From Nakamurella sp. PAMC28650 (GTDB lineage Bacteria > Actinomycetota > Actinomycetes > Mycobacteriales > Nakamurellaceae): a stretch of 64,000 nt of DNA. The stretch covers positions 2,232,001 through 2,296,000 of the forward strand of contig NZ_CP060298.1 of the NCBI RefSeq assembly GCF_014303395.1, given 5' to 3'. Both the position numbers and the translations under genes were made by a program. Shown piece after piece: positions 51,627 through 59,498 of this stretch. Position 1 is the first letter of the stretch. The number at the start of each line of letters is the position of its first letter. The notes under the pieces are model-generated. The model did not search any database. It saw only the letters and a program-made list of their open reading frames with translations, and was not told the DNA's origin.

Positions 51627-51670
51627 ACGTCCTGCACAGTGCGGCCTATAGGCCGCACTGTGCAGGACGT
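51627..51670. repeat. 44-bp perfect palindrome, copy 1
   Basis: Two 22-bp arms meet at the centre CCTATAGG with no loop; the left arm begins ACGTCCTGCACAGTGCGGCC. It lies between the convergent ends of nagA and the anti-sigma-like gene. A second copy at 53475-53516 is identical except for one compensated base pair. It could act as a bidirectional terminator or a repeat-element terminus. Confidence 0.9.
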
Positions 51671-51695
51671 TGCGGGTTGGGGGTGCGGGCCGCTG

Positions 51696-52904
51696 TCAGT
51701 CGATGAAGCGAACTGCTGCCGTCGCGGTGAGCGCCGGCGTCAGGTCGTCGAGCAGTTGCCAGCTTACGCTGCCGGCACCGGCCACCAGTCCGGTGGTTCC
51801 GATCTGCAACTCGAGCGTGACCGTCTGCCCCGGCGCCAGCGAGGCGGGTAGCCCGGCGCAGTTGAGCCGGCCGCTCGATGCCACGACGACCGGCGTCTTC
51901 CAGGGAACCACCTGGGCGCTCTGGACGAACCGGGGGCAGCCGGCCAGTGATACGGAGGTCCGGGTGGGGTTCGTCAGCGTCGCGGTGTAAGCCAGCGGTC
52001 GACCGAGCGCCGCGGTGGCCGGCACCCGCACCGACGCGCTGAGTGATCCCAGGCTCCCAGGTCTGACGACGGTTTCCCATTGGCCGAAGGCAGTGGAGCG
52101 CCACGGGCCGAGGTTTGACGGATCGTGCGGATCCGGGGGGATGGCGACGCCCTCGAGCGAGACCCGTGGGCTGTTCCGGCCATCGCCGATGGGAACTGCC
52201 AGCCAGACGGGCGTCGCCGCCTTGCCCCGGACCGCGGCCCAGGACACGGTTCCGAACGTCAGGTCGCCCGGTTGGACCAGGAGCGTCGCCGGGAAGAAGG
52301 CGGGACCGGCCGGAGACGCGTCGATCGGCAACGGTTCGCCCCTCGCGTCGACCAGGGACCCGACGAAGTAGCCGCGCTGGAGCGCGCAGGCCGACCGACC
52401 GGTCGACCGGAGAACGATGGCGGTCGACAGCCATCCGTCATCGCGCGGAACGGTCCGACTCGAGACGACCTGGAAGTCAGCCCCTTGGCACGAACGGGTC
52501 CCGGCAGATGCACCCAGCGGCGTCGGCGTGGCGACCGTTGCGACCGGGGTCAGCCTCCCGGTCGACCCTGGCACGGCGGAGGTCCAGGTCGCCGTGGTGG
52601 CCGGATCGGTCGTGCGTGCGGGTGTTGAGGTAGCCGGCGTGGTGGACGCCACCGGCCCGGTCGATGCAGCGGGAGGTGGCGCAGTTGCCGGGTCGGTTGC
52701 GTGGTGCCGAGTCACCCAGACACCCCCACCGACGAGCAGGGCAACGGCGGCCGCCGCCGCCACCAGCGGCACCATCCGCCGCGGCCGTGTCGTTCCGCCC
52801 GCGAACCGCAGGGCGTCACAGAGAGGAAGATCGTCCTCCTCCGGATGCTCGGCATTCCACCGCGCCGCGTAGTCCTGGAGACGATCGTCAATGGGTTCGG
52901 TCAT
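51696..52904 (-). CDS. Membrane anti-sigma-like protein with exported DUF4232-type domain
   Basis: The 402-residue protein has a short cytoplasmic part (about 43 residues), one membrane helix (VPLVAAAAAVALLVGGGVWV), a Thr/Pro/Ala-rich linker and about 270 residues outside. The outside part resembles DUF4232-like beta domains and contains cysteines that could form disulfides. The gene follows the sigma factor with a 4-nt overlap, the usual arrangement for an anti-sigma factor. The cytoplasmic part is short and lacks a clear zinc-binding anti-sigma motif, so the role is inferred. Confidence 0.65.
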   Translation of the reverse strand: MTEPIDDRLQDYAARWNAEHPEEDDLPLCDALRFAGGTTRPRRMVPLVAAAAAVALLVGGGVWVTRHHATDPATAPPPAASTGPVASTTPATSTPARTTDPATTATWTSAVPGSTGRLTPVATVATPTPLGASAGTRSCQGADFQVVSSRTVPRDDGWLSTAIVLRSTGRSACALQRGYFVGSLVDARGEPLPIDASPAGPAFFPATLLVQPGDLTFGTVSWAAVRGKAATPVWLAVPIGDGRNSPRVSLEGVAIPPDPHDPSNLGPWRSTAFGQWETVVRPGSLGSLSASVRVPATAALGRPLAYTATLTNPTRTSVSLAGCPRFVQSAQVVPWKTPVVVASSGRLNCAGLPASLAPGQTVTLELQIGTTGLVAGAGSVSWQLLDDLTPALTATAAVRFID

Positions 52905-53413
52905 CGGAACTCTGTTCCCAACTCGTCATGCAGACGTGCCCGGGCCTGGGAGAGCGTGGCCTTCACGGTGCCGACCGAACAAGTCATCGTGGCCGCGACC
53001 TCGGCCACCGGCAGTCCCAGGAAGTAGTAGAGCTCCACGGCAAGTCGTTGTCGTGCAGCCAGGGTGGCAATCGCCCGCTCGAGGTCGATGTCGGCCGGGT
53101 GGTCGGCCAGAGCGGCGTCGTCCAGCGGCGACCTCGTCGGGATGGGCAGGCGACGTCGCTGGAGCTTGCGAGCCTGGTCGGCCACGATGGCCAGCAGCCA
53201 TGACGGAGGAGTGCCTCGCGTCGCGTCGTAGGAGGACCACTTCCGCCAGGCGGCGGCGAGCGATTCCTGGATGACGTCGTCGCGATCTGATGCCCCACTC
53301 ATCCGCAACGCGAGCCGGCGCATCGCCGGCAGATGGGGCGTCACCCACTCGGTGAAGTCGCCGGCGCCGATCGCACGCTTCACCGGCTTCGCCCCCGTCA
53401 GTGTGGTCTCCAC
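52901..53413 (-). CDS. ECF sigma factor
   Basis: A 170-residue sigma factor. Region 2 is at about residues 25-80 (LALRMSGASDRDDVIQESLA), region 4 at about 110-160 (LAARQRLAVELYYFLGLPVA, CSVGTVKATLSQARARLHDE). The start is placed at GTG 53413; the open frame continues upstream through a repeat but without sigma similarity. It is cotranscribed with the membrane protein. Promoter targets unknown. Confidence 0.83.
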   Translation of the reverse strand: METTLTGAKPVKRAIGAGDFTEWVTPHLPAMRRLALRMSGASDRDDVIQESLAAAWRKWSSYDATRGTPPSWLLAIVADQARKLQRRRLPIPTRSPLDDAALADHPADIDLERAIATLAARQRLAVELYYFLGLPVAEVAATMTCSVGTVKATLSQARARLHDELGTEFR

Positions 53414-53474
53414 ACCTTGTCTACCCCGCCCTGATCCGTTTGGTTGAGTGCCTGCTGAGCTCGGGCACCGCGGA

Positions 53475-53516
53475 CGTCCTGCAGAGTGCGGCCTATAGGC
53501 CGCACTCTGCAGGACG
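53475..53516. repeat. 42-bp perfect palindrome, copy 2
   Basis: Two 21-bp arms around the same CCTATAGG centre as copy 1. The only difference inside the arms is G-C instead of C-G at positions 53484 and 53507, so pairing is kept. It lies upstream of the sigma gene and just downstream of the DUF4031 gene. About 15 bp of the left flank is also identical to that of copy 1. Confidence 0.9.
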
Positions 53517-53577
53517 CTGCGGGTGCCGGGCGCTGCGGGTGCCGGGCCTCGCGGGTGCCGGACGCTACGGGTTCCGG
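53514..53577. repeat. 16-bp tandem repeat, four units
   Basis: Units start at 53514, 53530, 53546 and 53562 (consensus ACGCTGCGGGTGCCGG). The array abuts palindrome copy 2 and runs into the 3' end of the DUF4031 gene. Confidence 0.8.
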
Positions 53578-53849
53578 GTACCGGCGCGGCGGTCCCGCTT
53601 CGGGCGTCGAAGACCGGCGGAAGTGATGCGGCGTAGGAGTTCCCGGCTGTCGACGGGCACGGCCCCGGCCGAGACGAGCAGATCGTAGCGTTCTTGCGGA
53701 ACGTCGTAGTGGTCGTGGTCGAAGCCGCGTTCCGGGAGACCCTGCGACGAAGCGAACGAGTGGAGTTCCGCGTAGGACGCGTCACTGACCAGGTGCGCCC
53801 ACAACCGGCCGTGGGCGGGCCAGCGCGGCGGGTCGATCAGGATGGTCAT
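53565..53849 (-). CDS. DUF4031 protein
   Basis: A 94-residue protein opening MTILIDPPRWPAHGRLWAHL, with HSFASSQGLPERGFDHDHYD and VPQERYDLLVSAGA, the pattern of the DUF4031 family. The function is unknown. The gene ends inside the 16-bp tandem array, so its last residues may be derived from the repeat. Confidence 0.8.
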   Translation of the reverse strand: MTILIDPPRWPAHGRLWAHLVSDASYAELHSFASSQGLPERGFDHDHYDVPQERYDLLVSAGAVPVDSRELLRRITSAGLRRPKRDRRAGTRNP

Positions 53850-53953
53850 ACCGACCGATTCTGCCCTGCCCCGCTCGCGCGATCGCTCACCAGCCAGGCC
53901 GGGAAGGTCCGGCCCCGACGCATCGGCCCTCGGTGTGACAGATCCGACAGCTA

Positions 53954-54004
53954 AAACGGATCATTGTGTCCCGTTTCACCGGATAGTTCGTGCTTGAAAC
54001 GGAT
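53954..54004. promoter_or_regulatory. Probable TetR-type operator upstream of the MFS gene
   Basis: AAACGG (53954-53959) and CCGTTT (53971-53976) form an inverted pair with an 11-bp spacer. A third AAACGGAT copy occurs at 53997-54004. The TetR gene downstream of the transporter makes it the likely binder. No certain -10/-35 pair is visible. Confidence 0.55.
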
Positions 54005-54036
54005 TAGCAAGCTCCCTTTTTTGACAGGAGACCCCG

Positions 54037-55531
54037 ATGACCAGCACCCAGATCGACCGTTCGTCTCTGATGAAGACGAGCGAGAACCCGCACCACGACC
54101 GACGTTGGCTGATCCTGGTCGTCCTGGGCATCGCGCAGTTGATGGTGGTGCTCGACGGCACGGTGGTGAACATCGCCCTGCCCTCCGCCCAGCACGCCCT
54201 CGGATTCTCCGACGGCAACCGGCAGTGGATCGTCACCGCGTATTCACTGGCCTTCGGAAGCCTGCTGCTGCTCGGTGGGCGACTCGCAGACCTGTTGGGG
54301 CGCAAACGGATGTTCCTGATCGGACTGGTCGGGTTCGCCCTCGCGTCGGCCGTGGGTGGTGCGGCAGACGGGTTCGGCATGCTGGTCACCGCCCGCGCTG
54401 TGCAGGGAGCATTCGGTGCCATGTTGGCCCCCGCCGCGCTCTCGCTGCTGACCACCACGTTCACCCACCCCAGGGAACGGGCCAAGGCCTTCGGCGTCTA
54501 CGGCGCGATCGCCGGCGGCGGCGCGGCCGTCGGACTGCTGCTCGGCGGGGTGCTGACCGAGTACCTGTCGTGGCGCTGGTGCATGTACATCAACCTGATC
54601 TTCGCTGCTGCGGCCTTCGTCGGCGGCATGGCGTGGTTGCAGAACCAGCGCGCCGAGCACCGTCCGAAGCTCGACATCCCCGGGCATCGGCACGGTGTCA
54701 GCCGGACTGTTCTCCCTGGTCTACGGCTTCTCTCATGCCGAGATCGGCGGCTGGGCCAGTGCCACCACGGTCGGGTTCCTGATCGCCGGGGTCGTGCTGC
54801 TCGGTGCCTTCCTGGCCATCCAGACCCGCAGCCCCCACCCGCTGCTGCCGCTCCGCATCCTGACGGACCGGAATCGCGGTGGTTCCTACCTGGCCATCTT
54901 CGTGGTGGGCATCGGGATGTTCGGTGTCTTCCTCTTCCTCACCTACTACCTGCAGGCCTCGCTGGGGTACAGCGCCGTGCTGACCGGTGTGTCGTTCCTG
55001 CCGATGACGGCCGGCATCATGTTGTCCTCGACCGTCGGCAGCTCCTTCCTGGCCACCAGGGTCGGTCCACGCTGGATCATCGGCTCCGGCATGCTGATCG
55101 CCGCGGTCGGGATGGCGTTGCTCACCGAGATCGGGCTGACGTCCGACTTCGCGCTGCACGTACTCCCGGGCACGGTGGTGATGGGCGTCGGAATCGGTCT
55201 GGTCTTCTCCAGCGCGATGAGCCTGGCCACCGCGGGGGTACACACCGAGGACGCCGGCGTCACCTCCGCGATGGTGAACACCAGCCAGCAGATCGGCGGA
55301 TCCATCGGCACTGCGCTGCTCAACACGCTCGCCGCGAGCGCCGTCACCAGCTATCTCGTCAGCCACGCGGCCGAGGGGAAGGGCGCCGCCGCGACCGCCG
55401 CGCTGCACGGCTACACCACCGCCTTCTGGTGGGCTGCGGGTATCTTCGCCGCAGGAGGGGTGCTCTGCGCCATCATCCTGCGGCCCGAGGTCCCGGTGAT
55501 GGATCCGGACGTCGAGATCGTCCACGTGTAG
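54037..55531 (+). pseudogene. DHA2-type MFS drug-efflux transporter with frameshift
   Basis: The N-terminal part (54037 to about 54682) encodes helices 1-6 with the MFS motifs (IVTAYSLAFGSLLLLGGRLA, LLGRKR). The C-terminal half continues in a different frame from about 54683 (GIGTVSAGLFSLVYGF) to 55531. One extra G in the GGG run at 54682-54684 explains the break; removing it gives a 497-residue protein, normal for 14-helix DHA2 exporters. The gene is either inactive or the base is a sequencing error. It lies upstream of a TetR gene, as drug pumps often do. Confidence 0.8.
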
Positions 55532-55551
55532 ACCTGTGTGGTGGCCGGCAA

Positions 55552-55596
55552 TCCGGTGGTCGGCCGTCCGGTGGTCGGCCGTCCGGTGTGGTCGGC
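55552..55596. repeat. Short 15-bp tandem repeat before the TetR gene
   Basis: TCCGGTGGTCGGCCG occurs at 55552 and 55567, with a degenerate third unit at 55582. It lies between the transporter stop and the TetR ribosome-binding site. Confidence 0.7.
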
Positions 55597-55635
55597 ACGG
55601 TGGCGACAGGCAAGGAAGCCTCGAGAGGAATGGCG

Positions 55636-56346
55636 ATGAACAGCAGCAGCGCGACTGCCGATCAGGCTCCGGCGAGGGCCGTGCGCAAGGACGTCGCGCG
55701 CAACCGCGAGCTGCTGCTGACTGCCGCCGACGAGGTGTTCGCCGAGCGCGGCGCCGACGTCACGCTCGACGAGGTCGCCCGGCAGGCCGGCGTCGGAGTG
55801 GCGACGGCCTATCGCCACTTCGACAGCAAGCAGGCGTTGCTCCGAGCCCTGTTCGAGAACCGGATCGAGCAGGTGACCGAGCACATGCGCCGGGCCGAAC
55901 TGCTCCCGGACCCCCGTCAGGCCCTGGAAACCTTCCTCTACCAGGCCTGCGAACTCCAGGCCAGGGACCGGGGCATGCGCGAGTTGGTGCATGCCAACCA
56001 CGGGATGCCGGGTGCGACCGCCTTCCGGGAGCGCCTGGAGCCCATCGCGAATCGGATCGTCGAACGGGCCAGGGCGGCCGGCGTGCTCCGGCCGGAGTTC
56101 ACCGCCGCCGACATCCCGATCCTGCTCGTCACGATCGGTGGCGTCAGCGACTACGCCGGACCGCTGGCTCCCGACCTCTGGCGTCGTTACCTGGACTTCT
56201 TGATGGACGGCGTGTTCGCCGAGGACATCCCCCGACGCCGCATCACGGTGCCACCGCTCGCACCGGAGCAGATCGACCTGGCGATGGACCGGTGGCACCG
56301 TCCGCGTTCGCGTTCCGCAGGATCGGATACAGTTCTGCCGAGCTGA
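55636..56346 (+). CDS. TetR-family transcriptional regulator
   Basis: The helix-turn-helix is at about residues 40-60 (VTLDEVARQAGVGVATAYRH), followed by a ligand-binding domain; 236 residues in all. ATG 55636 is chosen because AGAGGA lies 6 nt upstream; an ATG 6 nt earlier is too close to it. It most likely represses the adjacent exporter. The same reading frame is open back into the first part of the transporter, which I regard as accidental. Confidence 0.88.
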   Translation: MNSSSATADQAPARAVRKDVARNRELLLTAADEVFAERGADVTLDEVARQAGVGVATAYRHFDSKQALLRALFENRIEQVTEHMRRAELLPDPRQALETFLYQACELQARDRGMRELVHANHGMPGATAFRERLEPIANRIVERARAAGVLRPEFTAADIPILLVTIGGVSDYAGPLAPDLWRRYLDFLMDGVFAEDIPRRRITVPPLAPEQIDLAMDRWHRPRSRSAGSDTVLPS

Positions 56347-56526
56347 CCGACGACGGTGGCTAGGGTTCCGCTCTGGAGGTTCAGAGGCTGGTCCGAGCGC
56401 CACAAGCACTCGCGGTGAGGTTGCCGCGGGCGTCACACCTCCGGGACAAAAGCCCAGGGAGGGACCGGTTCGCACACGCCAGCACCATCCGTGTGCCGAC
56501 ACCGGCCCTACCCGAAAGGCAGCACC

Positions 56527-59406: not shown

Positions 59407-59434
59407 CTCGTCTGACGCTCGAGCGTCATACGAG
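59407..59434. repeat. 28-bp near-perfect palindrome
   Basis: The central 16 bp TGACGCTCGAGCGTCA are perfectly palindromic and the symmetry extends 6 more bp each way with one mismatch. It lies 50 bp after the exporter stop and may be its terminator or an operator-like site. Confidence 0.65.
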
Positions 59435-59498
59435 GTGGTCGGGAGTCATACGAGCCGGCGCTTCAGACCCGTGAGCGCCCAGAGCGCCCGTGCGCGAA

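Follow-up and report, generated by a model that had tools for sequence, protein, structure and literature searches.

Two palindromes around a sigma factor operon in Nakamurella sp. PAMC28650 belong to a dispersed palindromic repeat family located at gene ends

Introduction

In the window, the 64,000-nucleotide stretch of the Nakamurella sp. PAMC28650 genome (contig NZ_CP060298.1) analyzed here, an operon for an ECF-type sigma factor is bracketed by two near-identical palindromes, P1 and P2, which raises the question of whether these elements have anything to do with the genes that they enclose. A sequence-only reading of the same DNA had suggested for this arrangement a mobile cassette or recombination target, or else a paired terminator system. 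Here, we address this question with the repeats of the whole genome, the corresponding loci of related genomes and the predicted folding of the element.

Results

Direct reading confirmed that P1 and P2 are perfect palindromes at the positions previously proposed (Table 1), and that a single pair is changed inside the arms (C51637/G51660 in P1, G53484/C53507 in P2); the outermost pair is also unlike. P1 is situated between the convergent ends of the nagA and membrane-protein genes, 25 nt from each stop codon, and P2 lies, on the minus strand, 48 nt past the stop codon of the DUF4031 gene and 61 nt ahead of the sigma start codon. As had been claimed, the interval between both palindromes holds the sigma factor and membrane-protein genes, which overlap by 4 nt, and nothing else. 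The product of the second gene is a putative anti-sigma or signalling partner of the sigma factor; a Pfam profile search with this 402-aa protein gave no match.

Table 1. Features at the palindrome-flanked locus (window coordinates).
Feature	Position	Strand	Basis
nagA-like amidohydrolase gene, 3' end toward P1	50447..51601	+	Amidohydro_1 1.6e-25; homologues within the genus
P1, family copy, perfect 44-bp palindrome (ACGTCCTGCACAGTGCGGCCTATAGGCCGCACTGTGCAGGACGT)	51627..51670	.	Read directly from sequence
Membrane-protein gene, 402 aa	51696..52904	-	One transmembrane-like stretch in the translation, judged by eye
ECF-type sigma factor gene, between P1 and P2, outside the repeat itself	52901..53413	-	Sigma70_r2 1.5e-11, Sigma70_r4_2 1.6e-14
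P2, family copy, perfect 42-bp palindrome (CGTCCTGCAGAGTGCGGCCTATAGGCCGCACTCTGCAGGACG)	53475..53516	.	Read directly from sequence
Degenerate tandem repeat of GGACGCTGCGGGTGCCGG	53512..53585	.	Begins at the end of the P2 right arm
DUF4031 gene, 3' end toward P2	53565..53849	-	PF13223 7.8e-34

The 20-nt core shared by P1 and P2 has no third occurrence in the window, even when 3 mismatches are allowed (expected from shuffles, 0.01), and within the 5,629,850-bp assembly (one contig) the exact core is confined to this pair. While the core itself is unique, the element nevertheless recurs: P1 and P2 belong to a set of about 47 dispersed copies, located in the 5.63-Mb genome by pattern and covariance model. 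The link between palindromes and sigma operon postulated by the sequence-only reading is therefore unsupported on that reading's own terms. When variation was allowed, 10 near copies were found in the genome, and a pattern of outer arms plus spacer gave 56 matches compared to 9 for the reversed control. The covariance model, seeded with 19 copies, finds about 47 loci, a count from which a weak match at L062:19204 (24 bits) was left out. In an independent model scan of 864 kb, scores dropped sharply beneath the family copies, which indicates that half-decayed copies are rare.

Family members share a geometry of 40 nt, nearly always exact and often lying within a few additional paired bases. Their consensus, GTCCTGCA-N-AGTG-NNNN-C-NATN-G-NNNN-CACT-N-TGCAGGAC, combines outer arms (GTCCTGC/GCAGGAC) that are invariant in all full-length copies with covarying inner arms and a centre that is usually NATN, and the two ends of the element are symmetric. 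The outer arms were a requirement of the pattern search; the independent scan of 864 kb with the model found no copies devoid of them. Like the outer seven stem pairs, pair 13 was free of any change. Across 40 distinct copies, 92.5% of the stem cells are paired, both-sided changes were observed at 9 of the 18 stem pairs (71 such cells, compared to 33 in shuffles) and the covariation score was 0.241, versus 0.101 in shuffles; 19 of the 44 full-length copies are perfect palindromes. These paired changes uphold the earlier idea that the dyad is maintained, but the change between P1 and P2 need not be local: at the pair concerned, 15 distinct copies have A-T, 8 have C-G and 7 have G-C, and the P1/P2 difference is therefore ordinary family variation. 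With regard to stem mismatches, G-U and A-C were about equally frequent (12 vs 13 overall; 5 vs 5 on the transcribed strand of tandem sites), so that no RNA signature of one strand was visible, and selection on one transcribed strand alone was unsupported.

Tandem repeats starting from the arm end adjoin 17 of the 47 copies, whereas among 697 other gene ends 93 have tandem repeats (p = 1.4e-4), which suggests replication trouble at the family hairpins. Several of these degenerate repeats open with GGACG or GTCC, the letters at the arm end of the palindrome itself.

A home-made gene caller, the basis of all gene contexts given here, placed 17 of the 47 copies in convergent, 22 in tandem and 3 in divergent gaps; the other 5 fell inside called genes, of which some are doubtful. 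The convergent-to-divergent ratio of 17:3 contrasted with 63:119 across all gaps (p = 1.6e-5). At tandem sites, copies were located at a median of 20.5 nt after the upstream stop codon and 66.5 nt before the next start codon, and were nearer to the upstream stop in 17 of the 20 informative cases (p = 0.003). Related families in four other genomes (G054, G044, G017 and G013) showed 23 convergent, 18 tandem and 1 divergent location, with 2 copies inside genes.

In RNA of either strand, the family hairpin has a predicted energy of about -48 to -52 kcal/mol; the values for the two strands of P1 were -50.1 and -47.6 kcal/mol, with z about -8 to -9. Regarding the canonical features of intrinsic terminators, a G+C-rich hairpin past the stop codon is present, but a U-tract is absent, with a mean of 2.0 T per 10 nt after the hairpin compared to an intergenic background of 1.7. 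Mycobacterial RNA polymerase reportedly requires a U-tract. The gene-end positions fit a terminator-like role, as had been envisaged, but the lack of a U-tract leaves the stronger statement, that the element is nothing more than a common terminator, unproven. In 864 kb, sampled mostly around copies, 28 of 75 strong hairpins were family copies and the remaining intergenic ones were mostly unique sequences, from which it follows that the family fills the niche of gene-end hairpins. No Rfam match at the gathering threshold was obtained within the window. Another repeated palindrome, CTCGTNTGACGCTC.GAGCGTCATACGAG, was observed at 59407-59435 of the window and again at genome position 1,415,777, and a second dispersed hairpin, with TTCGGTGCCCGTACTC-GGCACCGAA in common, has at least 2 copies, at genome positions 738,468 and 1,425,582 (L059, L061).

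In the nearest relative, G001, whose NagA is about 80-83% identical, nagA faces the DUF4031 gene across 69 bp, with neither sigma unit nor palindrome, and the sigma unit is therefore lineage-specific. In G007 and G016, nagA is also next to the DUF4031 gene, the sigma unit and both palindromes being absent at the site. The unit was hence absent from three genomes, but the state that the sequence-only reading had proposed to look for, an empty site that retains one palindrome, was seen in none of them. Further along this stretch, the MFS and TetR genes between the DUF4031 gene and guaA (window 53870-56500) are likewise missing in G001, where the DUF4031 gene is directly followed by guaA; two lineage-specific insertions therefore adjoin here. 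The MFS transporter gene (window 54037-55531) is broken by a frame change near 54690, its first part covering MFS_1 positions 2-183 and its second part, in another frame, positions 146-347, and is either a pseudogene or the product of a sequencing error.

When palindrome-bearing intervals were compared to G001, the element was missing in 16 of 17. The single orthologous copy, at 187,921 in G000 and 1,198,058 in G001, shows a paired change at position 9. In 5 pairs of loci far apart in the genome the copies are identical; free assortment of stem pairs would give 0.27. Taken together with the occupancy in G001, these identical distant copies indicate that copies have spread in this lineage and that some of them are old. 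P2 differs by 1 mismatch from a copy at genome position 5,568,404, 3.3 Mb away, and by 2 from P1. As P2 is nearer to that distant copy, and as about 2% of copy pairs are as close as P1 and P2, a local duplication was dropped as the origin of the pair. Three copies within 5.5 kb were noted at genome positions 5,565,983-5,571,412 (L086).

The exact core was found neither in 60 relatives nor in GTDB contigs, and a 24-base degenerate pattern was equally unsuccessful; the wider family is visible only by covariance model or looser pattern. With a spacer of 14-40 nt allowed, matches to the outer motif numbered 36 in G000, 15 in G010, 13 in G003 and 11 in G013 within the genus, several members of which had none. 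Counts of the motif also exceeded background in G017 and G044 (genus g2, family f2), and nearly all remaining sampled genomes showed 0-2 matches, as in the control. In G054 (family f3), more than 20 copies were found by model, with the outer arm CGTCCGGC and an inner part, AAAGTGGTCG, that resembles that of the present genome; related families thus occur at gene ends in two further families of the order. The G010 and G003 copies combine the shared outer motif with another internal design. At four loci of these two genomes (L031, L032, L043, L044), the arm GGGAGTCCTGCAGAG is constant and the middle is often non-palindromic.

RAYT-type transposases (PF01797) numbered 0 in G000, G001, G003, G010, G013, G017, G044 and G054, with matches in control genomes, and mobilisation by RAYT was rejected on the basis of their absence from all 8 carrier genomes. 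P1 with its flanks had no match in plasmid and phage records, and therefore shows no sign of travel on them. A literature search found no paper describing this palindromic repeat.

Discussion

The palindrome family is a new relative of the known bacterial palindromic repeats and not an operon-specific device. We consider it probable that P1 and P2 are copies of a REP-like dispersed palindrome that acts as a two-way hairpin at transcript 3' ends, with copies that spread in the lineage and pairing that is kept; in the best-supported reading, the family has no functional relation to the sigma operon, which happens to lie between two of its copies. A copy would be transcribed at the 3' end of the adjoining gene or genes and would then fold into a highly stable hairpin. 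Since an inverted repeat acts in the same way on both strands, one copy could serve two convergent genes. Most likely, the hairpin would set the transcript 3' end, as an aid to pausing or termination, as a block to 3' exonucleases, or as both. P1 would thereby close nagA on the plus strand and the sigma operon on the minus strand, and P2 would close the DUF4031 gene and shield the sigma promoter from read-through. Copies have spread within the lineage by a putative copying process, and perfect pairing may be maintained via hairpin selection, template-switch correction during replication, or both; replication template switching, alone or together with selection, is a good candidate for what keeps the palindromes perfect. 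Against this explanation count the absolute invariance of the 7-bp outer arms, which exceeds the needs of a structural hairpin, the absence of a U-tract, the lack of a G-U excess and the reliance on a home-made gene caller.

Several of these features would also be expected of a selfish or mobile DNA palindrome devoid of RNA function, copied by a putative enzyme into permissive sites, with gene 3' ends as harmless locations and the outer arms as recognition site. We regard this alternative as unlikely: the identical copies at distant loci, the lineage-specific occupancy with respect to G001, the invariant outer arms, the tandem repeats at arm ends and the missing G-U bias are in line with it, but none of the 8 carrier genomes encodes a PF01797 RAYT, longer shared flanks are absent, and the copy common to G000 and G001 was kept with its paired change. 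A further reading, in which a sequence-specific gene-end punctuation system operates in this actinobacterial order, appears distinctly unlikely; here, a dedicated putative factor would read the invariant outer arms (GTCCTGC/GCAGGAC, or CGTCCGGC in G054) and would make 3' ends in both directions, copy the element to new gene ends, or do both, the inner arms being each lineage's own. Recognition of GTCCTGC...GCAGGAC by a DNA-binding protein, chromosome-organising or other, would explain the invariance of the outer arms, and the recurrence of the GTCCTGCA motif at a length near 40 nt in G013, G010, G003 and genus g2, which belongs to another family. It seems highly improbable, however, given that the location at gene ends and the scarcity in divergent gaps are indicative of transcription, that a simple operator with two half-sites has no need of an inner arm that is variable yet paired, and that G054 has a different outer arm.

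That the sigma unit arrived together with P1 and P2, via recombination between or at the palindromes, we judge very unlikely. The unit and both palindromes are indeed missing at the site in G001 (the 69-bp gap), G007 and G016, and a second bracketed block of three genes (5,565,983-5,568,404) stands in place of a 56-bp gap in G001. Neighbouring copies are less than 3 kb apart 6 times, compared to 1.1 expected, but for 35 of the 47 copies the nearest other copy is more than 3 kb away, P1 and P2 are not each other's closest copies, and similarity among other neighbouring copies does not exceed the average. Gene-content differences from G001 were found in 8 of 17 palindrome intervals and in 17 of 156 others (p = 6e-4), the sampling being centred on copies; the excess was weaker in convergent gaps alone (5 of 7 vs 4 of 19, p = 0.03), which tolerate insertions anyway. 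This excess fits cassettes, but is also compatible with gene ends that tolerate insertions of both kinds. Neither a recombinase nor a one-palindrome scar, nor sister brackets, were found. For the recombination target or cassette of the sequence-only reading, no positive evidence emerged beyond this association, and the locus advises caution, as matching palindromes that flank an operon may tell nothing about that operon.

Among known systems, the attC sites of integrons also have conserved outer segments and variable inner arms, are located at gene 3' ends and form hairpins. The family shares these four traits, but the GTTRRRY/RYYYAAC cores of attC are not visible in its consensus and its copies are scattered singly, not arrayed. 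Like bidirectional intrinsic terminators, it places a G+C-rich hairpin just past stop codons and in common to convergent genes; it differs from them in having no U-tract on either strand and in its fixed sequence and length, terminators of different genes being normally unrelated. Compensatory stem changes are known in terminators of Bacillus cereus (PMC5381666), and replication template switching can replace the two sides of a stem in a single step (PMC8794818). Such template-switch or quasipalindrome correction (PMC8794818, PMC7202029) accounts for block-wise paired changes by a single event without G-U intermediates; it is, however, a mutational mechanism and not an element, and leaves the invariance of the outer arms and the dispersal unaccounted for. 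With constant outer and covarying inner arms, the 40 distinct copies provide natural data for weighing RNA-level selection against template-switch correction.

The closest comparison is with REPs of the GTAG and CGTC superfamilies, which are dispersed, species-specific elements of about 40 bp with subfamilies that carry complementary stem changes, and which lie past the ends of coding regions, in gaps between convergent or tandem genes (Di Nocera et al. 2013, PMC3733652). G-T pairs are often reported in their stems, CGTC REPs lack a dedicated transposase, and Actinobacteria are unmentioned in the main text of that work (PMC3733652). The present family, 42 of whose roughly 47 copies lie outside called genes, resembles REPs as a short, dispersed palindrome with complementary stem changes and gene-end placement. 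In contrast to REPs, it shows no G-U excess, its copies number about 47, and its carriers lack the RAYT that accompanies GTAG-tagged REPs. It also has no unpaired end tag; CGTC is instead part of the stem, paired to GACG in 18 of the 19 seed copies (the remaining copy has U-G at the first pair), and the ends are equivalent. As the defining tag is missing, we keep the family out of both superfamilies. Fully paired, untagged repeats at gene ends, in genomes devoid of RAYT, would thus widen the notion of REP and carry it to this actinobacterial order.
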